Below are positions 1 through 10,595 of a stretch of DNA of 10,595 bases, piece after piece (the first letter of the stretch is position 1; each line of letters opens with the position of its first letter). A model generated the notes under the pieces. The model was not told where the DNA came from. It was given only the letters and a program-made list of their open reading frames with translations, and did no database searches. The translations under genes and the position numbers were made by a program. Source of the DNA: Acidobacteriota bacterium (GTDB taxonomy: Bacteria; Acidobacteriota; Blastocatellia; Pyrinomonadales; Pyrinomonadaceae); assembly GCA_003222935.1 (NCBI GenBank), contig QHXL01000320.1, positions 1 through 10,595 of the forward strand, written 5' to 3'.

Positions 1-2080
1 CCGACGTTTTCTTTGCGAGGCTAACCTTGCTGTTCTTTTTCTTGTCGCGGAGCAGACGACCCGCATACGGTCGTGCCTCCTGGCCGCAGAGCGCGAGGGC
101 AATCGCCTTTAGCACTGTCGATTTACCGACGCCGTTATCTCCGAGGAAGATGTGCCACGCATGTTCGAACCCCAAATCCAAATCAAGGCTGAGGTTTTCG
201 AATGGGCCAATGTTTTCAAGCGTGACACGCTTGAGCTTCGATACTTTTCTTTCGCCGATCGCGACGGTGGACTGCGGCGCGGCTACGGCATCTGTGAGCT
301 TGGTAAGAAAATCGCTGAGGTCTGAGAAGTTATCTTTAGGCGTGTAAGGAAATACTTTTATTCCGTAGCGTCTTTCCAGCAACTCAGCTTTGGCCCGCCA
401 TGCGCCGCCCGTCACGGCCACCAGAGCGTAATGGGTTCGCACAAAAGATTTCGGGAGTGTGATGCCGCGCAGATAGGCTTCGATACCTTCGAGGCTTGCA
501 CCTAAAAACAACAAGGTGCGGGAGAAGAACAACGTCTGCATAAACTGCGAAAAAAGATTATTGCCGGTGATCGCTTCCTCATACTGGTAGGAAGCAACCA
601 TCACTGTGTCCTTTCGTTCGAGCGTTCCGTACAGCTTAAGGATGAAGAAACGACGGCGGGTCAGGGCGGAAAGCAAGCGGTCCGTATCGCGCGGCGTGAA
701 GACATCGTCGCTCGTAACTCGGTAAACGCTCTCCAGCAAATTGTCAAAATTTGTCGTAAGCGCGGCCGAAAAATTAAGAGCTTCCAATTGGGAATGCAGC
801 GACGAGGGGTTAGACCTGCTCAGAAAAACTTTTTGCAAATAGGCGTTTAGCAACTCTCTCTGCGAGTCAGTTGTCAGCCGGCTCACCAGGCTGTCGGCGA
901 CCGGGTCTGCTTGACCTCGTTCTACGTCCGCCTGGTAGTGAGCCTCTTCGATGTCGGTAATGAAATTACTTGAACGTGCCCATTTGAGCAGGCCGACAAC
1001 GAAGTCTTTCCAAACAGGCAGGCCCGACTGAGCGCTCAGACCTGACCCTGCATAGAGTACACATTCCCCGGCAACACAAGCGTTTACCAGGTCGACCGGC
1101 AACTCTTTCGGCAAATGCAGCTCTTCAACTTCGTCCTCTGGTGGACCCGCTGTCGGAACGGGTCGGGATTTGAGTCTCGCTCTGCGGTAGATGATGAACA
1201 CCATGAGACTGGCGGCTATCAGGCTCACCAGACCTAGCAAGATAAAAAGGATCCGATTGTTCGAAAACTCTTTAGCTTCACCTTCGGCAGACGTCGGAGT
1301 TGGACTTGGGTCGGCCGTTAAAGGTTTCAAGGCTCCGAATTCGTAATTTCGCGTTGACGTTTCCTTGTCGCCCACTCTGGCAAATATCTTAAAACTTGAC
1401 TGACTCACCCCATCGGGGAGTTCTACAGTGAACGATCTCTCGTCCATCTTCAGGATTTTTTCGACGGCCTTACCATCGAAATAGATTGTGACCTTGGGCC
1501 ATAGTTCGAGCGGTACATAGTCGCTGAAGGTTACGTCGAAGTCCCTGCCGGTTGGGTTGCGTACCCCATCAATCTCGACCTCTTTGCCTGTCAAACCGGT
1601 CGGAACAAGGACGTTAAATTGGTTATAAGTTATTCCCCCGTCTTCGTTTCGCAGATCAAAAAAGACTACTTCGACAGGAATGGAGTCGCCAGGCTTAGGA
1701 TTGGCTGGAATATTTAGTTTGTCGGGAACAATGGCAGCAATAGTCTCCGCGTCATTATTGTAAATTGGATAAAACCGCGCCGATACACCACCAATCGATA
1801 ACCTGTATCTTTTTTTCAGTTCGTCCGGACCATTTACAGCGGATTGGATTGTGAGTTGGATGACGGTCCCGCTCGGCGCTTCGCGTGGCTTTATTTCCGT
1901 CACGAAGGGGATTTCTGCCGAACGCGGCTGTCTAGGCGTTGGAGACGGGTCAGGGGTTGGATACTTGCCAGGAGTTGGAGACTGGCGAGGAGTTGCAAGC
2001 TGAGCGGGAGTCCGATTGGTCCAACTCGAAATAGGTAGAACAAGAAGGAAGAGAAGTAATAGTAGTAATAGTCTCCTCAC
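1..2080 (-). CDS. Membrane-anchored SIR2-like / SMC-type ATPase fusion with exported TIG-like region (C-terminus missing)
   Basis: The frame is open from a GTG at 2080 to the left window edge (693 codons, no stop), so the 3' part is missing. Order seen: signal peptide (residues 1-20, Leu run after RR); P/T hexapeptide linker (25-52); beta-rich exported region, of which 57-160 resembles a TIG/IPT fold and 165-250 a second beta unit; another P/T-rich linker (257-264); one transmembrane helix (277-298) followed by RRARLK, which places the rest in the cytoplasm; SIR2-like domain (about 325-600); ATPase N-terminus from about 615. SIR2 marks are AGSGLSAQSG (344-353), TTNFD (442-446), LKLYGT (481-486, where His is expected instead of Tyr) and LGAS (526-529). 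Walker A is GDNGVGKST (647-655), preceded by LENIGPFENL as in RecF/SMC/OLD-type ATPases. In known systems SIR2-like domains deplete NAD+, often under control of an NTPase. A role as a transmembrane sensor-effector is my inference. It is the third gene of the minus-strand cassette, 87 bp after the MBL gene. Confidence 0.85.
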   Translation of the reverse strand, partial: MRRLLLLLLLFLLVLPISSWTNRTPAQLATPRQSPTPGKYPTPDPSPTPRQPRSAEIPFVTEIKPREAPSGTVIQLTIQSAVNGPDELKKRYRLSIGGVSARFYPIYNNDAETIAAIVPDKLNIPANPKPGDSIPVEVVFFDLRNEDGGITYNQFNVLVPTGLTGKEVEIDGVRNPTGRDFDVTFSDYVPLELWPKVTIYFDGKAVEKILKMDERSFTVELPDGVSQSSFKIFARVGDKETSTRNYEFGALKPLTADPSPTPTSAEGEAKEFSNNRILFILLGLVSLIAASLMVFIIYRRARLKSRPVPTAGPPEDEVEELHLPKELPVDLVNACVAGECVLYAGSGLSAQSGLPVWKDFVVGLLKWARSSNFITDIEEAHYQADVERGQADPVADSLVSRLTTDSQRELLNAYLQKVFLSRSNPSSLHSQLEALNFSAALTTNFDNLLESVYRVTSDDVFTPRDTDRLLSALTRRRFFILKLYGTLERKDTVMVASYQYEEAITGNNLFSQFMQTLFFSRTLLFLGASLEGIEAYLRGITLPKSFVRTHYALVAVTGGAWRAKAELLERRYGIKVFPYTPKDNFSDLSDFLTKLTDAVAAPQSTVAIGERKVSKLKRVTLENIGPFENLSLDLDLGFEHAWHIFLGDNGVGKSTVLKAIALALCGQEARPYAGRLLRDKKKNSKVSLAKKTS
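1937..2008 (-). repeat. Four tandem 18-nt units encoding P-x-x-x-P-T hexapeptides
   Basis: Four units of 18 nt follow each other in frame (1937-1954, 1955-1972, 1973-1990, 1991-2008). In the protein they read, in order, PAQLAT, PRQSPT, PGKYPT and PDPSPT (residues 25-48). They sit just after the signal peptide and form a probably extended, wall- or periplasm-spanning linker. The units have diverged, so this is an older expansion rather than a fresh slippage tract, but copy number may vary between strains. Confidence 0.8.
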
Positions 2081-2167: not shown

Positions 2168-3709
2168 TCAATACGGAATGCGATACTCAACGTACAAATC
2201 TTCAAACCTGACCGCCTTCTCAAAGCTCTTACGCTCCTGAGGCGACAACATTCTCTCAATATCCGATTCAATTTCCGTTACGTCCGGAGCGTCCGCCAAC
2301 AGCACTCGCCCGCGCGCCTTCTTCTTGAGCGCGTCCCAAAGCGGAGGGTAAGGAAACTCCCACTGCTGATCTTCAGCGGTTTCGCGGTGAACGGGAATCA
2401 TCGCTACCAAATCGTTGCTAGTCATTTTCTCCAGCCCTTTACCCCTTAAGGTTGCGTTGTGGCTTCCGTGATGACCGACTTTGTACAGAACTGTCCGGGC
2501 CAGCAGATCCTCGGCATTCACTTTCTTAAGTTCTCCTTTGGAGTTTTTGACTTTCCACTCCAATTCGCCCCACGAAAGCCAGTTGCCCACCTGCGCATCT
2601 CCCGGAAATAGCAATACCTTTCCTTCACCAGGCTCGCCCATCTCCACGGCGAAAGCCAGGCAGGTATTGTTTGTATAACTGTCGAGATGTAGTGCGAGCT
2701 CACCAGCCATATTCAACCAGTCATGATCGATGCGTCTCCACTCGTTGTCATCACCGTCTACGAAGCCGTAACGTTCGCTGAAGAAGGTGTCGCTACTCGC
2801 TTGCTCACTGGTAATGCTGAAACTCCCATCGAATGGGCAGGCCCGCGCGCTAAGATCGGATGAATCGTCGTCACCGCCGACTGCTGCCATGAAGCTGTCA
2901 AACAGTGAAAAGCTCTGCTTACCTTCGTCGTAGGTTTCCGTTCTCGACAACTTCTTTCGGATGTAATCCGGATCTTCCGGCGGACCCAGAATGTAAACGC
3001 GGACGTCGTCCACCCCTTCGATTTTCAACGGCTGTTTTTTCGGGTCGCAGTATTCTTTCCCGCCAAGTTCAAGCATGTAATCCCACGTTGCTTCAGTTCC
3101 GCCGTCCGCCGGAGCGTCCGGACCCATTCCGCCAAAAAAGCCGAATAATTCAGAGATGGCATGTTTGTACAGCCCCATGTGTTTATCGCCTTTTTTGGCT
3201 TCGGGGATCAGTGCCATTGCGCTTTTCAGTGCTTTCTTTTTCTTCTTAAACTCTTTCTTGAGTAGCTGTGCGGGTTTGTTGTCGGGCTCTTCAGTCCATG
3301 CCACCCAAACTCTCGCCACGTCCAGTTCGTCGAAGATCGTCTTCGCCTGGTGAAAACCAGAAATGTGATCCCAGTGCTCATGAGTCACTGCGAGGGCGTC
3401 GAGCCGCGCAGCGGATTTTTTGCGGGGGCCTTCATCAAGGAGAGTCTGCTGGATGTTCGCCACGACCGCGTTCATCTCCGGATCGCCGTAGTGTTTGCTT
3501 TTGAGGGCACCGCAATCAACCATCATGTGAAAAGGCTCGGGCTCGCGGGGAAAGGTCACAAGGAAACAGTCACCGAGGCCTTGTTTGTACATGCGTACCC
3601 TGACCTCTCTGCTTTTTGCCTTCGCGACCCGGGCTTTCGTTCTCCTGGTGGGCGCGGCCTTGCTGGCCTTTTTCTTCGTCGACTTTGTACCGATTCGTTT
3701 GGTTGGCAT
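2168..3709 (-). CDS. ComEC/Rec2-like metallo-beta-lactamase-fold hydrolase
   Basis: A 513-residue protein with the metallo-beta-lactamase signature THEHWDH (His110, His112, Asp114, His115), an upstream strand MVDCGA (63-68), LLFPGDAQ with Asp371, and VGHHGSHNAT around His413/His414. The MVDCG, LFPGD and HHGSH set is typical of the ComEC/Rec2 hydrolase domain rather than of true beta-lactamases; relatives are nucleases, phosphodiesterases or lactonases. Residues 1-35 are rich in Lys/Arg and probably disordered, compatible with nucleic-acid binding. There is no transmembrane channel as in full ComEC, no signal peptide, and long insertions lie between the motif strands (about 150-330), so this is a stand-alone cytoplasmic enzyme. 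Its ATG at 3709 lies 2 bp after the stop of the metallopeptidase gene, with its Shine-Dalgarno GAGGTG (3723-3718) inside that gene's last codons, so translational coupling is likely. The substrate is unknown. Confidence 0.88.
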   Translation of the reverse strand: MPTKRIGTKSTKKKASKAAPTRRTKARVAKAKSREVRVRMYKQGLGDCFLVTFPREPEPFHMMVDCGALKSKHYGDPEMNAVVANIQQTLLDEGPRKKSAARLDALAVTHEHWDHISGFHQAKTIFDELDVARVWVAWTEEPDNKPAQLLKKEFKKKKKALKSAMALIPEAKKGDKHMGLYKHAISELFGFFGGMGPDAPADGGTEATWDYMLELGGKEYCDPKKQPLKIEGVDDVRVYILGPPEDPDYIRKKLSRTETYDEGKQSFSLFDSFMAAVGGDDDSSDLSARACPFDGSFSITSEQASSDTFFSERYGFVDGDDNEWRRIDHDWLNMAGELALHLDSYTNNTCLAFAVEMGEPGEGKVLLFPGDAQVGNWLSWGELEWKVKNSKGELKKVNAEDLLARTVLYKVGHHGSHNATLRGKGLEKMTSNDLVAMIPVHRETAEDQQWEFPYPPLWDALKKKARGRVLLADAPDVTEIESDIERMLSPQERKSFEKAVRFEDLYVEYRIPY

Positions 3710-3711
3710 CT

Positions 3712-5733
3712 TTATGGCACCTCACTATCAACGCTGCGGTGTAGCAGTGCGAAAGGTTCTGCGGCATTCCGTAAATGGCGGAAGTAGGTTGCTCTAGGGG
3801 ACCCATCGATCATTCCGCGGCGAAATTGGATGTGGCGTTCAAGACGCGCCTCGTCAGCAATATCTTTGGTGATCGCGTAACGCAGTTTCATAGTATCCAG
3901 GTCCAGGACAAGCGTGCTGCCACCCCTGAACTTGAAAGTTGAAGATTTCTCACCAGGATGTGTCTTGTCCTTGATATCGCGACTCTGAATGAGGGAAATA
4001 ATAAGTTGGTTCAGAGCTGTTCCATCCGGGCCCACCCGACGCGCGGGTCGTAATGAGTGGATCTGAAATTTCGGCACGCCTTTTTTCACCGCGTTCTTGC
4101 CGGAGGCGGACTCTTCCAGACCAGTTTCCATGTTGGCCGCGTTAGCCTTACCAGTCGAACCGCGAAGGCCGGGAAGATTGAACTCGAAGGTGATGCCCGC
4201 GATCTTGCCGAACTTTTTGAGAGCTTGATGACCTTCACTGACAATCCAGTCATTCAACTCGCCGCCGATTTTCTCTGTCGTGTCAAACACTTCCCGCCGA
4301 CTCTTAAAATAGGTGAAATCATTGGCGGTGCTCCTGAGCCGTTCTGCCAGAGGCTCGAAGAACTGTTGGCTGCCACTAACAAGCGGCCAGCGCAGGCTCT
4401 CCGTTGAAAGCGTACGTACGTCGCGCGGATAAATGCCTCGGCGCCTAAAAGCTTCAATAAAAGCGATGCGATAACCGCGATCATCATCTGGAACCAGGTC
4501 AACGTCGGCTGTAATGATTGCTCGCAGGTAGTCGCCAAAGTTGATGTCGATCGGCGGGCAATAGTCGAGCGCTCGGATGCAGACATTCAGAACGTGTTGT
4601 GCTGACTTGGACGCCTCCGACGCGAGCCGGTTTACGAGGTCCGGGTGAAGTTCGCCCTCCTGCAAAATCCCTGTTCCGCTGCTTGCGATGCGCAGGAGGT
4701 CGGCAACACGGCTTTTGTATATTGCGAGGAACGCGTCGAAGACGGCAGCAACGAGAATCGCGCCGCGGGCATGTGGCTCCGTCGTATTCTCATAGTCTTC
4801 AGGTTTGGGATCATGGGGCTTCCATTTACCGGTTATCTTATCGACTTCACCGATTGCATCTCGCAAGGCTCCGTAATTGCCAATGGCTTCACCGAACTGC
4901 TGCGCTAACTCGCCCAGCAAGTTATGGGTTGCAAGGTTTCCCCTCGTGCGCGCTATTTGGTGGCGCAACACCTCCGGAAAGCTGAAGTGCTGAAAGAGGG
5001 CGACTATATCTGCAAAGGCTTCATGGAAAGCGTAGGTGTCGCGATGGTTAGCTTCGGTGAAACGGCTGTGCATTCCGTCGAGGAGAGCGTGGGTAGTCTC
5101 ATGCGCAATGATGTCGTGTGATAGGCAGCTAAACACAATCCCGCCGGGCAAGTAACGTTCAGGGCTCTCAAAAGACGCCGGAAAGTATCCAAACAAGAGG
5201 GCCTTCTTTTCAGGGCTGTAATAGGCATTCGCCTCTCTCAACGCGTGAGGATAAACGCGCAACCGCTCGACGAATTCATAACGAATGCCACCGTCGATGC
5301 GCAGGCGCGGCGCCCACAACGCCGGCCGGCCAAGAGCGCGTTCGAAGTTACGAATCGTAGTCATCGTGACGGCGTAGACCATTTGTTGATGAAACTGCGG
5401 GTTGCCTTCGGAGGGCGGCAATCCATCCTGGGCCAGGATATGTGGATCGTTAAGGTCTACGGGCGCGTAAAATGATCCACTTGCCGGATCGTAGTCCACT
5501 ACTTCTATGTACTTGCCAATGGGTCCTGGCAATAATCCTTCGCTGCCGTATCGGGGTTTCTCTTCCCATTCGACCTTGTAGGTAATTTCATTGATCACCG
5601 CAGTATCGAGGTGTACGGACAGACTGGGATCAAAAGCGTAGCCACGCAGTTTGCGATACACAGGGCGAGGAGTTGAGCCATTCTCCGGTTCGCACTTCTC
5701 ATTCGGCGATGTGTTATTGACCTCATCATCCAT
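3712..5733 (-). CDS. Gluzincin-type zinc metallopeptidase, thermolysin-like, without signal peptide
   Basis: A 673-residue protein with a zinc site HETTH (His211, Glu212, His215) and a downstream helix HEAFADIV, in which Glu238 is the likely third ligand and Asp242 stands four residues later. This geometry (third Glu 23 residues after the second His, then +4 Asp) matches the M4/thermolysin-like gluzincins. The catalytic core is about residues 100-300. The region from about 400 to 673 has no motif I recognise and could be a substrate- or partner-binding part. The N-terminus is hydrophilic with no signal peptide or propeptide-like hydrophobic segment, so the enzyme probably works in the cytoplasm, unlike secreted M4 proteases. 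The ATG at 5733 has GGGAGG at 5749-5744. It is the first gene of the cassette and overlaps no other gene; its stop is 2 bp from the MBL start. The target is unknown; a partner protein of the same cassette is one possibility. Confidence 0.82.
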   Translation of the reverse strand: MDDEVNNTSPNEKCEPENGSTPRPVYRKLRGYAFDPSLSVHLDTAVINEITYKVEWEEKPRYGSEGLLPGPIGKYIEVVDYDPASGSFYAPVDLNDPHILAQDGLPPSEGNPQFHQQMVYAVTMTTIRNFERALGRPALWAPRLRIDGGIRYEFVERLRVYPHALREANAYYSPEKKALLFGYFPASFESPERYLPGGIVFSCLSHDIIAHETTHALLDGMHSRFTEANHRDTYAFHEAFADIVALFQHFSFPEVLRHQIARTRGNLATHNLLGELAQQFGEAIGNYGALRDAIGEVDKITGKWKPHDPKPEDYENTTEPHARGAILVAAVFDAFLAIYKSRVADLLRIASSGTGILQEGELHPDLVNRLASEASKSAQHVLNVCIRALDYCPPIDINFGDYLRAIITADVDLVPDDDRGYRIAFIEAFRRRGIYPRDVRTLSTESLRWPLVSGSQQFFEPLAERLRSTANDFTYFKSRREVFDTTEKIGGELNDWIVSEGHQALKKFGKIAGITFEFNLPGLRGSTGKANAANMETGLEESASGKNAVKKGVPKFQIHSLRPARRVGPDGTALNQLIISLIQSRDIKDKTHPGEKSSTFKFRGGSTLVLDLDTMKLRYAITKDIADEARLERHIQFRRGMIDGSPRATYFRHLRNAAEPFALLHRSVDSEVP

Positions 5734-6013: not shown

Positions 6014-7039
6014 TCATTCCTTAACAACTGGTTGGCGGAATGAGCGCTCGGTGGTGTCGTTCGGGTCGGTGGAGACTGGACCATCGCGCCACAGCCAGCG
6101 CATCATCTCCGGCATGATGGCGCCGCCAAACTTTTGTCCGTGCTTGTTCATGCCCCACGAGTAGTTCACGTCATAACCCTTCTGCGTGAGAGCTTTTAGT
6201 AGTCGGACATTTTGTAAAAACCAATCCCATTTCTCGTCGTAGACACCGTTGCGGATGCCGCGATTATCGTTGCGGCCATCGCAGAGGAAGATTCGAATCG
6301 GCTTTTTCGCGCTTGCCAGCACACGCTCAGTGTATGCATGACCACCGCGAATATTTGTAAAGCTCCCTACATTGCTCAATACCTTGCGGAATTGGTCGGG
6401 CCGCTCCCAGGCGACGGTAAACGCGGCGATCGCCCCCGAACTCGAGCCGCCGATACCGTGCTGTTCCGGATCCTTTGAAATGTTGTAGTCCTTATTGAGC
6501 GCCGGCATCAGCTCTTCGGTGATCACGCGAGCGTACTTGTCATCGAGTGTGTTGTATTCCGTGGGCCGGTTTGTGGTCCTATCGCCCCACTCACTCGAGC
6601 TGGGCTCAGGCTGTTCCGGCTTACGGCCCGGGTTGATGAACACACCGATCATTACCGGAATCTCGCGCCTGTAGATCAGGTTGTCCATCACGTTCTGTGC
6701 ACGTATATCTCCGTTCTCGGCCTTGAAGGCATGACCGTCCTGAAAAACCATCAGTGCCGCCGGAGCCTTCGGATCGTATTGCGCCGGCACGTACACCCAG
6801 TATGTGTGCTGAGTGCCGGGATAGGCATTGCTTGGTAGCGTGTACGGTCCACGTATCTCGCCCTTTGGCACGCCTTCCTGTGGCATCGAGTCGGGGCCGA
6901 GGCGGTATTGAGCATCCGGGTTTGGACTTGGTGTCGCTTGCGGCTGGCTGGTAGTAGTTTGCGAGGGAGCCTGGGCTAAAGCTATGACTACCGCTCCGGC
7001 AAATATTAAACTGATGGCGTACGCGAACACTTCTCTCAT
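6014..7039 (-). CDS. Exported alpha/beta-hydrolase esterase (enterochelin-esterase-like, PF00756 type)
   Basis: A 341-residue protein with an N-terminal hydrophobic signal peptide (residues 4-23, AQA-like cleavage site) and a short P/T/Q-rich linker (25-42). The esterase fold shows [10 protein letters not shown] (96-105), the nucleophile elbow GSSSG (198-202, Ser200), an acid near DGRND (254-258) and a catalytic His300 in NKHGQ. This pattern is that of the putative esterase family that includes enterochelin esterase and feruloyl/acetyl esterases of plant-polymer degraders. It probably acts in the periplasm or outside the cell on an ester-linked substrate that cannot be named from sequence. 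The start at 7039 has GAGGAG 5 nt upstream. It is divergent from the GH30 gene, and the two could serve the same carbohydrate. Confidence 0.85.
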
Positions 7040-7061
7040 TGGATTCTCCTCAATTGGATTT

Positions 7062-7158
7062 CCTCTGTGCGTTCTCTGCGTCTCTGTCCCTCTGTGGTTA
7101 ACTTAAGGGCCGATTAGATGAACCACAGAGACACAGAGGCACGGAGATCGCACAGAAA
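7062..7158. repeat. Large imperfect inverted repeat in the divergent spacer
   Basis: Left arm 7062-7099 and right arm 7121-7158 are 38 nt each and match at about 30 positions as reverse complements, around a 21-nt loop. Each arm is made of CTCTGTG/CACAGAG-type short units. Such 'CACAGAGACACAGAGG' elements are dispersed intergenic repeats in several environmental phyla. It fills most of the 165 bp between the esterase and GH30 starts, so promoters of both genes must overlap or abut it. The right arm lies inside the open extension of the GH30 frame that begins at 7118. Confidence 0.85.
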
Positions 7159-7204
7159 AAACCCACTGCTAATCTTCTACAAAGATATGGTAATGTCCTG
7201 CGCT

Positions 7205-8701
7205 ATGAAAATAGATCGTCGTGGTTTCCTAATCGGATCATCTTCTGCCCTGGTGTTAGCGAAGAGCGAATTGTCTGCGGCCGGATCTGTTAAGCGGTCC
7301 GAGACGTCCGGGGTGCGTGACAGCGAGTGGAGAGTTGCAGACCGGGCAGTCAAGGTCTATACCACCGCCGAGAACACTAATCACCGCCTGTCAGCTACCG
7401 ACACACTCGCTTTCAAACCCATGGGCCAACCACTGGAAACGCAAGTTTGTGTGTTTGTCGATCCCACGAGGACGTTTCAGACGATCCTGGGGATTGGCGG
7501 CGCGCTCACGGATTCTTCGGCTGAGACGTTCGCAAAACTGCCGCCGGCAAAACAGCGTGAAATCTTAAATGCTTACTTTGACGCACGCACCGGTATTGGT
7601 TACACGCTGGCAAGAACAAACATCCATAGTTGTGATTTCTCAAGTGGTAGCTACACCTATGTGAACGAAGGCGACAAGGAGTTGAAGTCTTTCAGCGTCA
7701 ACCACGACAAGCAATTTCGTATTCCCTTTATCAAACAAGCCATGTCCGCTGCCGGGGGAAAACTCAATATTTTTGGCAGCCCCTGGAGTCCGCCCGCTTT
7801 CATGAAGAGCAACAACGATATGCTTCATGGTGGGAAGTTGAAGCCGGAGTTCTATCAAGCGTGGGCCAACTACTTCACGAGGTTTATCAAAGCCTATCAG
7901 CAAGAAGGGATACCCATCTGGGGTATTTCAATTCAAAACGAGCCCATGGCGACGCAGAAATGGGAGTCATGCATTTTCTCAGCGGAGGACGAGCGAGACT
8001 TCCTGAAAAACTATCTTGGCCCAACGATGAAAAGGGAAGGGCTGAGTAGTAAGAAGATTATTGTCTGGGATCACAATCGTGACCTCATCTATCAAAGAGC
8101 AACGACTCTGCTAAGTGATCCGAAAGCTGCGCAGTACGTATGGGGTATAGGTTATCACTGGTATGAACCATGGAGTGGCGGCGAGCCGATGTTCGACAAC
8201 GTTAAGCTGGTGCACGAGTCTTATCCGAACATGAACCTCATCTTCACGGAAGGTTGCTCCGATTCCTTTGATGCCCAAAAACTTTCCGAGTGGAGACTCG
8301 GTGAACAGTACGGACGTTCAATGATCAATGACTTCAACAACGGCACTGTTGGCTGGACAGATTGGAACATCCTGTTGGATGAGACCGGTGGCCCAAACCA
8401 CGTCGGGAATTTCTGCTTCGCTCCAGTACATGCGGATACCAAAACCGGTGAGCTAACTTATACCAACTCCTATTACTATATCGGGCACTTCTCAAAGTTT
8501 CTCCAACCAGGCGCCAGGAGAATCGCAAGTTCTCCGAGCAGAAGCCAACTAATCTCAACCGCTTTTATCAATCCTGATGGCAAGGTGTCAGTTGTCGTGA
8601 TGAACAAGAGCGACAAGCCGGTGCCCTATTTCCTTTGGGTCGAGGGTCAGGCAGCTGAAGTTAATAGCTTGCCGCACTCCATCCAGACACTTGTTTTCTG
8701 A
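7205..8701 (+). CDS. Tat-exported glycoside hydrolase family 30 enzyme (glucosylceramidase / beta-1,6-glucanase-like)
   Basis: A 498-residue protein from the chosen start. It begins MKIDRRGFLIGSSSALVLA, a twin-arginine signal peptide, so it is exported folded. The catalytic barrel shows GIGGALTDSSAE near the N-terminus, FGSPWSPPAFMK, the acid/base Glu246 in QNEP and the nucleophile Glu349 in FTEGC, which are the GH30 (clan A) hallmarks; the C-terminal beta region ends near the stop. Likely substrates are beta-linked glucans or glucosides; sequence alone does not settle the subfamily. The frame stays open upstream to an ATG at 7118, but that extension reads NHRDTEARRSHR, which is just the translated inverted repeat. 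I therefore start at 7205. ATGs at 7187 and 7193 are possible alternatives, and none has a good Shine-Dalgarno site. Confidence 0.88.
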   Translation: MKIDRRGFLIGSSSALVLAKSELSAAGSVKRSETSGVRDSEWRVADRAVKVYTTAENTNHRLSATDTLAFKPMGQPLETQVCVFVDPTRTFQTILGIGGALTDSSAETFAKLPPAKQREILNAYFDARTGIGYTLARTNIHSCDFSSGSYTYVNEGDKELKSFSVNHDKQFRIPFIKQAMSAAGGKLNIFGSPWSPPAFMKSNNDMLHGGKLKPEFYQAWANYFTRFIKAYQQEGIPIWGISIQNEPMATQKWESCIFSAEDERDFLKNYLGPTMKREGLSSKKIIVWDHNRDLIYQRATTLLSDPKAAQYVWGIGYHWYEPWSGGEPMFDNVKLVHESYPNMNLIFTEGCSDSFDAQKLSEWRLGEQYGRSMINDFNNGTVGWTDWNILLDETGGPNHVGNFCFAPVHADTKTGELTYTNSYYYIGHFSKFLQPGARRIASSPSRSQLISTAFINPDGKVSVVVMNKSDKPVPYFLWVEGQAAEVNSLPHSIQTLVF

Positions 8702-8715
8702 TTTGCCCCGGATCA

Positions 8716-8801
8716 TTAGCCGCAGATTGACGCAGATAAACGCAGAACTGAGGCTGACAATCCACTCGTCTCTGCGAAGATCTGCGTAAATCTGCGGCTA
8801 A
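8716..8801. repeat. Inverted repeat of 10-bp-phased TCTGCG units between convergent genes
   Basis: Left arm 8716-8746 and right arm 8771-8801 are 31 nt and match at 27 positions as reverse complements, with a 24-nt loop. The left arm holds CGCAGA at 8721, 8731 and 8741, and the right arm TCTGCG at 8771, 8781 and 8791, each at exact 10-bp steps. It sits between the stop of the GH30 gene and the stop of the DUF1552 gene, so as RNA it could act as a bidirectional terminator or 3'-end stabiliser, although no T-run follows. The type is a dispersed intergenic repeat seen in many environmental bacteria. Confidence 0.85.
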
Positions 8802-8810
8802 GATTCTGAG

Positions 8811-10160
8811 TCAGATCAGATCCAGTAGGCCGGTACTGTCGCCAAGTCTTTCCTGATGGACGCCCATGCGATCGAGTAGCGAGAGGTACAGGTTCGTGAT
8901 TGGGGTGCTCGTCGGAGCAATGGTGTGCTTTCCAGGTTTCAAGCTCCCGGCACCGCGACCTGCAAGTAAGACCGGTAATGCTTCGTGGGTATGTCTGTTG
9001 CCGTCGGCTATCCCACTTCCGTAAACGAGCATCGAGTGGTCCAACAGAGTACCGTCACCCTCGGGTGTCGATTTGAGCCGCTCCAGGAGATACGCAAACA
9101 ATTCCGTGTGCAGTGTGTTGATGCGAACGACCTTCTCAATCCATTCCGGGTTGTTGCGGTGATGCGTCAATGGATGATGAGGATCGCTGATACCAATCTC
9201 GGGATAGACTCGATTGCTGCCCTCTCTTCCAACCACGAGCGTGACCACGCGAGTCAGATCCGATTGAAACGCCAGGAGCAGTAAGTCGCACATCAGTTTT
9301 GCGTACTCAGGGAATTCGAAAGGTATTCCCGTTGGCTTATCGATCCCGGGGGCAAGTGCACGCGTGTCTTTTTCGGCGCTCTCGATTCGTTGCTCTATCT
9401 CGCGGACGGAGAAGAGATATTCATCCATCTTGCGCTGATCTCCTGGACCAAGAGTCTTAACAAGACCTTGCGTCTCTACTCTCACCATGTCCAGGATGCT
9501 CTTTCGATACTTCAGTCGCCGTGCCCTGGTTTGTGGATCAAGACTGAGATCCTCCCCGGTACCAAACAAGCGTTCGAAAGCCGCACGAGGATTTACCTCG
9601 GGTGGCATGGGCGTCTGCGGTGTACGCCATGACAGGCTGTTGGTATAGGCGCAGCTGTAACCTGAATCGCAGTCACCAACTGTGCGCGAATCTTCGCAAC
9701 CCAATTCGAGAGATGGAAACCGCGTGGTGCCTGCCAGCTTGGTTGCCGCCACTTGATCCACCGAGACTCCGCCACGAATATCGGCGCCCGCAGTCTTGTG
9801 GCAATGTACACCGGTCAGAAATGAAGCACCGGCGCGAGCGTGGTCCCCGGGGCCGTCTCCCAATGCGTTGCCCGTGTAAGAGTCCAAATTAGAAAGAACG
9901 TAAAGGTCCTTCCGAAGCGCTTCGAGCGGTTTGAGGATCCGCGTGAACTGGTAGTCGGAACCGGTCGCGCTTGGCGTCCACTCCCTCATGACAATACCGT
10001 TTGGCACATATACAAAAGCCATTCGGGTTGGAGGTTTCGACTCGAGAGCACGGCCGCGAGCAAACGCCGGAACCATCGCATCAAGCAAGGGAAGGGAAAG
10101 CACTGTCCCCATACCACGCAGAAACGTTCGTCTCGGCAGTCGCTTCCGAGTAATGATCAT
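8811..10160 (-). CDS. DUF1552 family Tat-exported protein (HXXSHH type, PF07586)
   Basis: A 449-residue protein with a twin-arginine signal (LPRRTFLRGMG, residues 8-18; hydrophobic stretch to about 33, likely cleavage after AFA). The mature part begins TRMAFVYVPNGIV and carries HPLTHH (His329, His333, His334), the family's HXXSHH motif with Thr for Ser. The family is of unknown function, found mostly in Planctomycetota, Verrucomicrobiota and Acidobacteriota, and almost always encoded beside a DUF1592/DUF1588/DUF1585 haem protein, as here. Its ATG overlaps the upstream stop (ATGA, 10160-10157) and has an AGGAGA site 8-10 nt before it, so the two are co-translated. The length is usual for the family. 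It ends close to the inverted repeat. Confidence 0.92.
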   Translation of the reverse strand: MIITRKRLPRRTFLRGMGTVLSLPLLDAMVPAFARGRALESKPPTRMAFVYVPNGIVMREWTPSATGSDYQFTRILKPLEALRKDLYVLSNLDSYTGNALGDGPGDHARAGASFLTGVHCHKTAGADIRGGVSVDQVAATKLAGTTRFPSLELGCEDSRTVGDCDSGYSCAYTNSLSWRTPQTPMPPEVNPRAAFERLFGTGEDLSLDPQTRARRLKYRKSILDMVRVETQGLVKTLGPGDQRKMDEYLFSVREIEQRIESAEKDTRALAPGIDKPTGIPFEFPEYAKLMCDLLLLAFQSDLTRVVTLVVGREGSNRVYPEIGISDPHHPLTHHRNNPEWIEKVVRINTLHTELFAYLLERLKSTPEGDGTLLDHSMLVYGSGIADGNRHTHEALPVLLAGRGAGSLKPGKHTIAPTSTPITNLYLSLLDRMGVHQERLGDSTGLLDLI

Positions 10161-10595
10161 CGTGCAATCTCTCCTCTTCGTTTCTGAAATGGTTGGCTGT
10201 TGACGATCCCGAGAATCAGACTCGAGATGCGGTAATTGTCAGCACCCACCTTCCTGACGATCTCTTTAATGGCTGCATCGTCAGCAGGTTCAAGCCCTCT
10301 ACCCAGCGCATAGATAAACATCTTCCGGGTCAAACTCTCGGTGAATGCATTGGGATCAGCTTTCAGAATCGCTTTCAGCGCCTGTGGTCCAGTGAATGAT
10401 CTCCCGTCAGGCAGTGTTCCCGAAGCATTGATCGGAAACTCGCCATCCTTCGTGCGCCAGGCACCGACGGCGTCGAAGTTTTCCAACCCAAATCCCAAGG
10501 GATCCATTCGCACATGACATGAGGCGCAGATTGGGTTCTTTCGGTGTAGTTCAAGTTGCTCACGCATCGAAGATGTTGTGCCGATCTTTGCCTCA
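10157..10595 (-). CDS. C-terminal end of a DUF1592/DUF1588/DUF1585 planctomycete-type cytochrome-like protein (5' part off the window)
   Basis: The last 145 codons are visible; the frame stays open to the right edge, so an internal ATG at 10567 is not the true start. It shows the end of DUF1588 with a c-type haem motif CASCH followed by MDPLGFGLENFDAVG, and then DUF1585 (GTLPDGRSFTG through the C-terminus). In full-length relatives these follow an N-terminal cytochrome-like part and DUF1587, DUF1595 and DUF1592, for a total of about 700-1000 residues. The protein is expected in the periplasm and presumably transfers electrons together with the DUF1552 partner. The stop overlaps the DUF1552 start by 4 bp. 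Confidence 0.9.
   Translation of the reverse strand, partial: EAKIGTTSSMREQLELHRKNPICASCHVRMDPLGFGLENFDAVGAWRTKDGEFPINASGTLPDGRSFTGPQALKAILKADPNAFTESLTRKMFIYALGRGLEPADDAAIKEIVRKVGADNYRISSLILGIVNSQPFQKRRGEIAR

Follow-up and report, generated by a model that had tools for sequence, protein, structure and literature searches.

We analysed a 10,595-nucleotide window of an Acidobacteriota genome (contig QHXL01000320.1), and in particular the gene at its left end, which encodes a putative membrane-spanning fusion of an exported region, a SIR2-like domain and an SMC/PtuA-like ATPase. The window is the first half of the 20,828-b contig, which starts at window base 1, leaving no sequence into which the fusion gene could be extended on the left, and belongs to a metagenome-assembled genome (MAG) of 695 contigs that is 88.6% complete. 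Three genes follow one another on the minus strand: a peptidase-like gene (5733-3712), a metallo-β-lactamase (MBL)-fold gene (3709-2168) after 2 bp and, after a further 87 bp, the fusion gene (2080-2). Relatives in other bacteria show that the layout of the fusion protein is real, and they suggest that the protein acts as a switch of the receptor kind and not simply as an enzyme that destroys NAD. The features are as follows:

2..2080, minus strand: fusion-protein gene, 693 codons visible, GTG start at 2080, 3′ end truncated by the contig end.
2015..2080, minus strand: signal peptide, residues 1-22 (MRR and a hydrophobic run; Kyte-Doolittle 2.17, hydrophobic segment 4-22).
1913..2014, minus strand: Pro/Thr-rich linker, residues 23-56, from reading the sequence.
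1301..1912, minus strand: exported beta-rich region, residues 57-260, with a weak TIG hint (E 0.037).
1190..1246, minus strand: transmembrane (TM) helix, residues 279-297, then an Arg/Lys-rich flank (Kyte-Doolittle 2.87; AlphaFold2 (AF2) helix 269-303).
269..1108, minus strand: SIR2-like domain, residues about 325-604, with Asn444 retained and Tyr484 (629-631) at the catalytic His position.
2..238, minus strand: SMC/PtuA-like ATPase, N-terminal P-loop part, residues 615-693, Walker A at 116-142.
2168..3709, minus strand: gene for a putative MBL-fold hydrolase of 513 aa with HxHxDH at residues 110-115, separated by 87 bp from the fusion gene that follows it.
3712..5733, minus strand: gene for a zincin-type metallopeptidase-like protein of 673 aa (HETTH...HEAFAD), with 2 bp between it and the MBL gene that follows.

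The original prediction had read signal peptide, Pro/Thr linker, exported part, TM helix, SIR2-like motifs and Walker A in one frame. That frame is indeed uninterrupted and still open at the contig end (693 aa), and the motif positions agree (GSGLS at 345, TTNFD at 442, LGAS at 526 and Walker A GDNGVGKST at 647). Because an in-frame TGA is the fourth codon upstream of the GTG, the gene has no possible longer start. The single TM helix, first placed at 277-298, coincides with the Kyte-Doolittle segment listed above, and the 20 residues flanking it carry a net charge of -1 outside and +2 inside. Pfam bears out the SIR2-like and SMC-like ATPase parts (SIR2_2, E 3.4e-16; AAA_23, E 4.9e-8; both exceed the cutoff), as does Foldseek, in which the model of the fusion protein matches ThsA (8.3e-13), DSR2, KomC and human FAM118B. 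By profile similarity to PADLOC models the SIR2 part is nearest to ThsA (3e-18), with LmuA second best (2.1e-16). Structure modelling, proposed with the original prediction, succeeded in part: with 9 sequences, block-mean pLDDT is 73-93 over the SIR2 part (residues 321-600), whereas it is at most 56 over the exported part (51-260), the AF2 model of which is unusable, and at most 53 at the ATPase start. The exported stretch is beta-rich, as claimed, whereas its description as TIG-like is no more than a hint, the TIG match falling below the cutoff and Pfam and PDB searches with the region giving no significant match. Matches in other genomes to residues 4-67 (G097) and 7-67 (G098), which span no more than the signal peptide and Pro/Thr linker, were discarded, and those to residues 17-85 (G041) and 22-97 (G095) likewise.

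A complete protein with the same layout is encoded on the circular complete megaplasmid NC_006569.1 of Ruegeria pomeroyi DSS-3. A tblastn search of 72,556 plasmid records gave a match in 118; among the 40 listed, 39 were confined to the SIR2 part and one longer match (residues 299-678) was that of Ruegeria. Its protein, SPO_RS20455 (WP_011241907.1, 986 aa, annotated as 'AAA family ATPase'), has in the same order as the window a signal peptide, an exported part, a TM helix (195-213), a SIR2-like domain (SIR2_2, 3e-6) and a full PtuA-like ATPase (matches to AAA_21, AAA_15 and AAA_23), and BLASTP aligns the two proteins colinearly from before the TM helix, through the SIR2 domain, to past the P-loop (E 3e-27). 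PADLOC models assign the Ruegeria ATPase to PtuA (6.4e-47) and the directly following gene to PtuB (1.1e-66). Eleven of 13 solved-structure matches of this ATPase are PtuA or retron-PtuA-type or AAA ATPases of that size class, and the best named ones are PtuA, with chains of Septu and of retrons included. With the full order and the adjacent PtuB, the layout is therefore real in a complete record, within a Septu-like operon. The two proteins also differ: the exported part of SPO_RS20455 is shorter and has no detectable similarity to that of the window protein, the Ruegeria protein has lost both the catalytic Asn and the catalytic His, and its locus has a CHAT gene upstream and PtuB downstream in place of the peptidase and MBL genes. 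The CHAT + DUF7379 gene (L116:3338-6238), directly upstream of SPO_RS20455, is a possible third part of that operon.

The kinship with PtuA is strong in Ruegeria and extends by transfer to the window, where all eight best models among 133 PADLOC models for the 84 ATPase residues are PtuA (top 1.6e-16) and where, within the MAG, the strongest PtuA match is the window's own contig (1.3e-10). On these profile matches, and with PtuB adjoining in Ruegeria, Septu (PtuA/PtuB) is the closest described system for the ATPase of the fusion protein, retron I-A effectors sharing the likeness. To our knowledge, described PtuA proteins have no SIR2 domain, TM helix or exported part and are not membrane-anchored. 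The accessible text of one report states that Septu defence requires both the Walker/ATPase motifs of PtuA and the HNH motif of PtuB (PMC13096335), and that of another describes growth arrest on PtuAB co-expression (PMC11555353).

The membrane-anchored SIR2 arrangement extends beyond these two proteins. An alignment of the TM-SIR2 parts of the window protein, the Ruegeria protein and a relative in genome G294 (alignment A3) was used to scan genome contigs of 84,980 species with patterns that omit the His motif, similarity to the window nonetheless being required; 8 of the 155 pattern matches encode a relative. All eight have an N-terminal TM helix, about 300 exported residues, a second TM helix and a SIR2 domain, and then end. 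These eight include the G294 protein (as L161), and a ninth distinct protein (L194) comes from the class of G294. Homologues that keep all parts, sought after the original prediction, are thus represented by the Ruegeria protein, whereas the nine others, from Acidobacteriota-type genomes, have the exported part, TM helix and SIR2 domain and no ATPase. In one of them (L155) the exported part is modelled as a WD40-like beta-propeller (AF2 with 8 sequences, mean pLDDT 80.8; Foldseek). The inner flank of the second TM helix is more positive than the outer in 9 of the 10 anchored proteins measured, of 11 in total.

The anchored type is sparsely distributed. It was found in 2 of 396 genomes sampled across the phylum (the window genome and G294; matches of any kind at 1e-6 were present in 34, and the weak match rows G245 second, G222, G248 and G390 were left out of the TM check) and in 4 of 200 genomes of the class of G294 (G294, G602, G605 and G662); the 162 genomes of the window's own class yielded no second full-length match. 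A genome-contig scan with the window protein alone and viral-contig scans with the window protein and with A3 recovered no relative, a viral-contig scan with alignment A6 gave 19 loci with SIR2 relatives and none that was anchored, and tblastn of the G294 propeller protein against the plasmid records gave no match. A MAG titled Bordetella parapertussis (CALQCC020000019.1, the source of L161) has a TM-SIR2 protein identical to that of G294; the title is probably a mislabel, with G294 belonging to the phylum of the window. An unusual chain was seen by eye at L028 (G259:C141), where SIR2 and NTPase parts are followed in the same frame by a histidine-kinase H-box-like stretch.

Anchored and unanchored SIR2 domains differ at the catalytic His. 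The window domain retains the GSGLS loop and Asn444 of the TTN motif and has Tyr484 in place of the His, at a column that corresponds to the catalytic His of ThsA and FAM118B in alignments. In a profile alignment of 105 rows (8 that were gapped at this column were dropped and identical segments were counted once), the residue is not His in any of the 11 distinct anchored proteins (9 Tyr, 1 Asn and 1 Trp), whereas 65 of the 68 distinct relatives that lack an upstream TM helix keep it, the other three having Phe, Asn and Arg. The presence of a TM helix was judged by Kyte-Doolittle alone, and L032, a partial frame with His and a hydrophobic stretch inside its SIR2 domain, was counted with the relatives that lack one. 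In a first alignment the His had been absent from 10/10 anchored domains and present in 20/20 other relatives. A tree of 26 SIR2 domains, from which the partial rows L032, L035, L042 and L044 were omitted, unites the window protein and eight propeller proteins in one clade (support 95/85); the Ruegeria domain, on a long branch, stands next to this clade in a position that is not firm (86/91). Membrane anchoring thus coincides with the loss of the His, perhaps in a single event.

SIR2 and PtuA defence proteins are already known. The window protein shares the SIR2-like Rossmann fold and the catalytic Asn motif with the SIR2 NADase defences (ThsA of Thoeris, DSR1/DSR2 and KomC, and also AVAST 5, SIR2-HerA and SPARSA). 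ThsA, DSR2 and KomC have the catalytic His, whereas the window protein lacks it and has a Tyr and a membrane anchor; the other SIR2 NADase defences (AVAST 5, SIR2-HerA and SPARSA) keep the His and are cytoplasmic. Complete versions of these systems were not recognised: the ThsA model aligns over its positions 12-197 of 478 alone, without the SLOG/STALD part, no TIR protein that could be a ThsB partner is among the 7 window proteins scanned (genes beyond the contig end being unseen), and the full-length DSR models are unmatched (Dsr1, 17.6 bits against a cutoff of 1400; Dsr2, 14.9 against 1400). In a literature search that left subscription papers and preprint servers mostly uncovered, neither a transmembrane SIR2 protein nor this peptidase-MBL pair was recognised as described, and nothing was found on an anchored SIR2 branch that lacks the His, has exchangeable exported parts and includes a PtuA fusion. 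One review covers domains shared among defence systems and includes SIR2 systems; its accessible text contains no word starting 'transmembrane' or 'membrane' (PMC10952713). In the portions of the sources available, SIR2 defence proteins are described as NADases, and no membrane protein is among them.

We tentatively favour, at a little below even confidence, a scheme in which the fusion protein crosses the membrane once and, like a receptor, regulates a Septu-type (PtuA) ATPase through a non-hydrolysing SIR2 domain. The predicted topology makes gating by an outside event plausible: the exported region would sense an envelope or extracytoplasmic event, and the SIR2 domain would relay it by oligomerising and/or binding NAD (ADP-ribose) and would not act as an NADase. 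The signal would alter the state of the PtuA-like ATPase, which would then release a nuclease (PtuB in Ruegeria; at the window the remainder of the ATPase and any nuclease gene would fall beyond the contig end), and the outcome would be growth arrest or phage restriction. A broader version, which we regard as doubtful, is that of a transmembrane receptor family with a sirtuin signalling domain that has abandoned NAD hydrolysis and that, in two lineages, has been fused to PtuA, yielding a Septu gated at the envelope, with nuclease release controlled by an exchangeable exported sensor via an NAD-binding pseudo-sirtuin. If true, bacteria would use the sirtuin fold as a receptor in an anchored SIR2 branch that has exchangeable exported domains and lacks the catalytic His, and through the fusion to a PtuA ATPase beside PtuB, Septu would gain a sensor that faces outwards. 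Ruegeria is a cultured model bacterium, and its operon makes the receptor reading testable.

Several observations weigh against the proposed Septu-type regulator. The PtuA model also matches 14/14 control genomes at E <= 1, and P-loop similarity by itself is therefore weak evidence. The window holds only the first 79 residues of the ATPase, with no PtuB visible before the contig ends; the ATPase remainder and PtuB were sought elsewhere in the MAG at modest sensitivity with nothing convincing (best PtuB match, E 0.116). The SIR2 part resembles LmuA as well as ThsA. The SIR2-PtuA-like ATPase fusion is known here from two genomes, and the TM helix of SPO_RS20455 has a modest Kyte-Doolittle value (1.66), lower than a peak inside its own ATPase (1.82). 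None of the nine extra anchored proteins has an ATPase, and among the eight TM-SIR2 loci compared there is no conserved neighbourhood, only two pairs sharing a neighbour gene (E about 2e-12). Finally, the absence of the His is no proof that NADase activity is absent.

With the ATPase cut, PtuB unseen, a SIR2 part that is also LmuA-like and nine nearest relatives that lack the ATPase, a serious rival is a physiological receptor of envelope or NAD state without a role in defence, in which TM-SIR2 would be a chromosomal Acidobacteriota sensor and the window copy would have acquired an ATPase. The propeller proteins that stop after SIR2, their unshared neighbourhoods and the finding of a SIR2 match (334-599), counted whether anchored or not, in 1 of 50,697 phage records fit this view. 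Both ATPase-fused members, however, adjoin defence-type genes (PtuB and CHAT in Ruegeria and the peptidase-MBL pair at the window), and overall we consider a purely physiological receptor unlikely.

The original prediction had taken the SIR2 part for an NAD+-depleting effector, and in that form the protein would be a membrane-tethered abortive-infection effector, with an outside event activating the SIR2 NADase via the ATPase. The retained Asn444 and GSGLS loop speak for this reading, and the best solved relatives (ThsA, DSR2, KomC and FAM118B) are NADases. The role nevertheless appears unlikely because the His is replaced in every anchored protein and kept in nearly all relatives without a TM helix; the Ruegeria domain lacks the Asn as well. 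According to the accessible parts of two reports, DSR2 H171A served as a catalytically inactive mutant, with NAD+ bound in the DSR2 complex (PMC10981675), and either H206A or N163A in FAM118B abolishes the activity of the FAM118B:A pair (PMC12700824). We consider this effector reading improbable and the claim of the original prediction not upheld.

A further alternative is that the fusion gene is an exchangeable third component of the peptidase + MBL locus, in the place taken elsewhere by a patatin, a subtilase or a Rad50-like ATPase, with its mechanism set by that system. The peptidase-like protein has no match in Pfam or NCBIfam; the MBL gene matches the models LmuA (2.3e-11), 6A-MBL (5.7e-7) and Avs1a (1.1e-4) and lies far under the NCBIfam cutoffs (Avs1a, 21.1 bits against 420; 6A-MBL, 29 against 220). 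Relatives of the peptidase occur in 17 of 119 genomes of the family (own included) and in 86 plasmid records, and those of the MBL protein in 12 of 119 (own included) and 34, respectively. We inspected 35 peptidase loci: 20 from 14 genomes, 14 from plasmid records, six of which had been chosen through the MBL search, and the window (3712-5733 and 2168-3709; the others are L073, L091-L115 and L120-L127). In 27 of the 35, one pair that overlaps by start choice (L098) included, the MBL and peptidase genes are direct neighbours in the same orientation; when the MBL-chosen loci are excluded, the figure is 21 of 29. The motif HExxH...HE..AD is present in 34 of 35 loci, the frame of the remaining one being cut, and the count for HxHxDH is 27 of 27, both subject to listed exceptions.

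The partners of the pair vary. Beside it or fused to it are a patatin (7 loci), an N-terminal subtilase fusion (5), a separate subtilase (1) and, on two Hymenobacter plasmids, a Rad50-like ATPase; DUF2235 lies near the pair in 3 loci, one of which also has the subtilase fusion, and peptidase loci without MBL have a subtilase fusion (4) or a caspase-like gene (3). None of the queried partners occurs at 10 of the 35 loci, several of which end at contig ends. Partner names are from record annotation, with Pfam used for one patatin and one ATPase and our own reading for the caspase-like query. CBASS or ThiF genes lie near 5 of the 14 plasmid loci, 2 of the 14 records being unannotated. The pair, which is present in several phyla, resembles a defence-type module whose partners are exchangeable, and is itself a candidate for a separate defence system. 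Conflict systems with a zincin-like metallopeptidase are mentioned in the accessible text of Kaur et al. 2020 (PMC7159879), in which SIR2 and MBL do not occur as words.

The pair probably belongs to the same locus as the fusion gene and may form one system with it, and the varied partners and the Rad50-like ATPase are in keeping with a third-component role. Its tie to the SIR2 gene is tentative, because a TM-SIR2-ATPase partner is seen in the window locus alone (1/35); the 87-bp gap and the lack of the pair in the Ruegeria locus also count against this role, which we judge to be quite improbable. Two plasmid loci deserve mention. In Rhizobium rhizogenes pColt5.8d (L126, 10830-13194), an AAA ATPase gene and an HNH gene come right after patatin, peptidase and MBL; the ATPase matches the PtuA-like part of the Ruegeria protein at 3e-7, and a PtuAB-like pair there adjoins the peptidase-MBL module. 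In Methylorubrum extorquens CM4 pCMU01 (L120), a subtilase-peptidase fusion and MBL have two 'SIR2 family protein' genes downstream and DUF2235 upstream.

A Lamassu-like arrangement, in which a SIR2-type LmuA effector is fused to an SMC-type ATPase and the MBL gene is a second effector, is very improbable: LmuA models match both the SIR2 part and the MBL gene, as given above, yet the 25 highest-ranking of the 133 models tried on the window's cut ATPase include no LmuB, Ruegeria carries a PtuA-type ATPase with PtuB, and the zincin-like peptidase partner sets the window MBL gene apart from Lamassu LmuA, AVAST 1 Avs1a and 6A-MBL. A chimera of an exported-protein gene and a SIR2-ATPase gene, created in assembly or binning, for which the fragmented MAG, N runs elsewhere in the contig and the lowest GC content at third codon positions (GC3; 0.45) in the first 100 codons might speak, is scarcely credible, as no break appears at 1000-1300, where the original prediction had located the risk: GC stays within 0.48-0.57, GC3 climbs gradually from 0.45 to 0.67 without a step at the TM helix, the identical TM-SIR2-ATPase order recurs in the circular Ruegeria record and the TM-SIR2 junction is present in nine more proteins.

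The rest of the window has ordinary neighbours (6014-10160: a putative esterase, a GH30 glycoside hydrolase and DUF1552 (HXXSHH)), and at its end (10157-10595) a DUF1588/DUF1585 (PSCyt/PSD) gene is broken by an N gap. In the remaining part of the contig (L026), a large gene is interrupted by further N runs.

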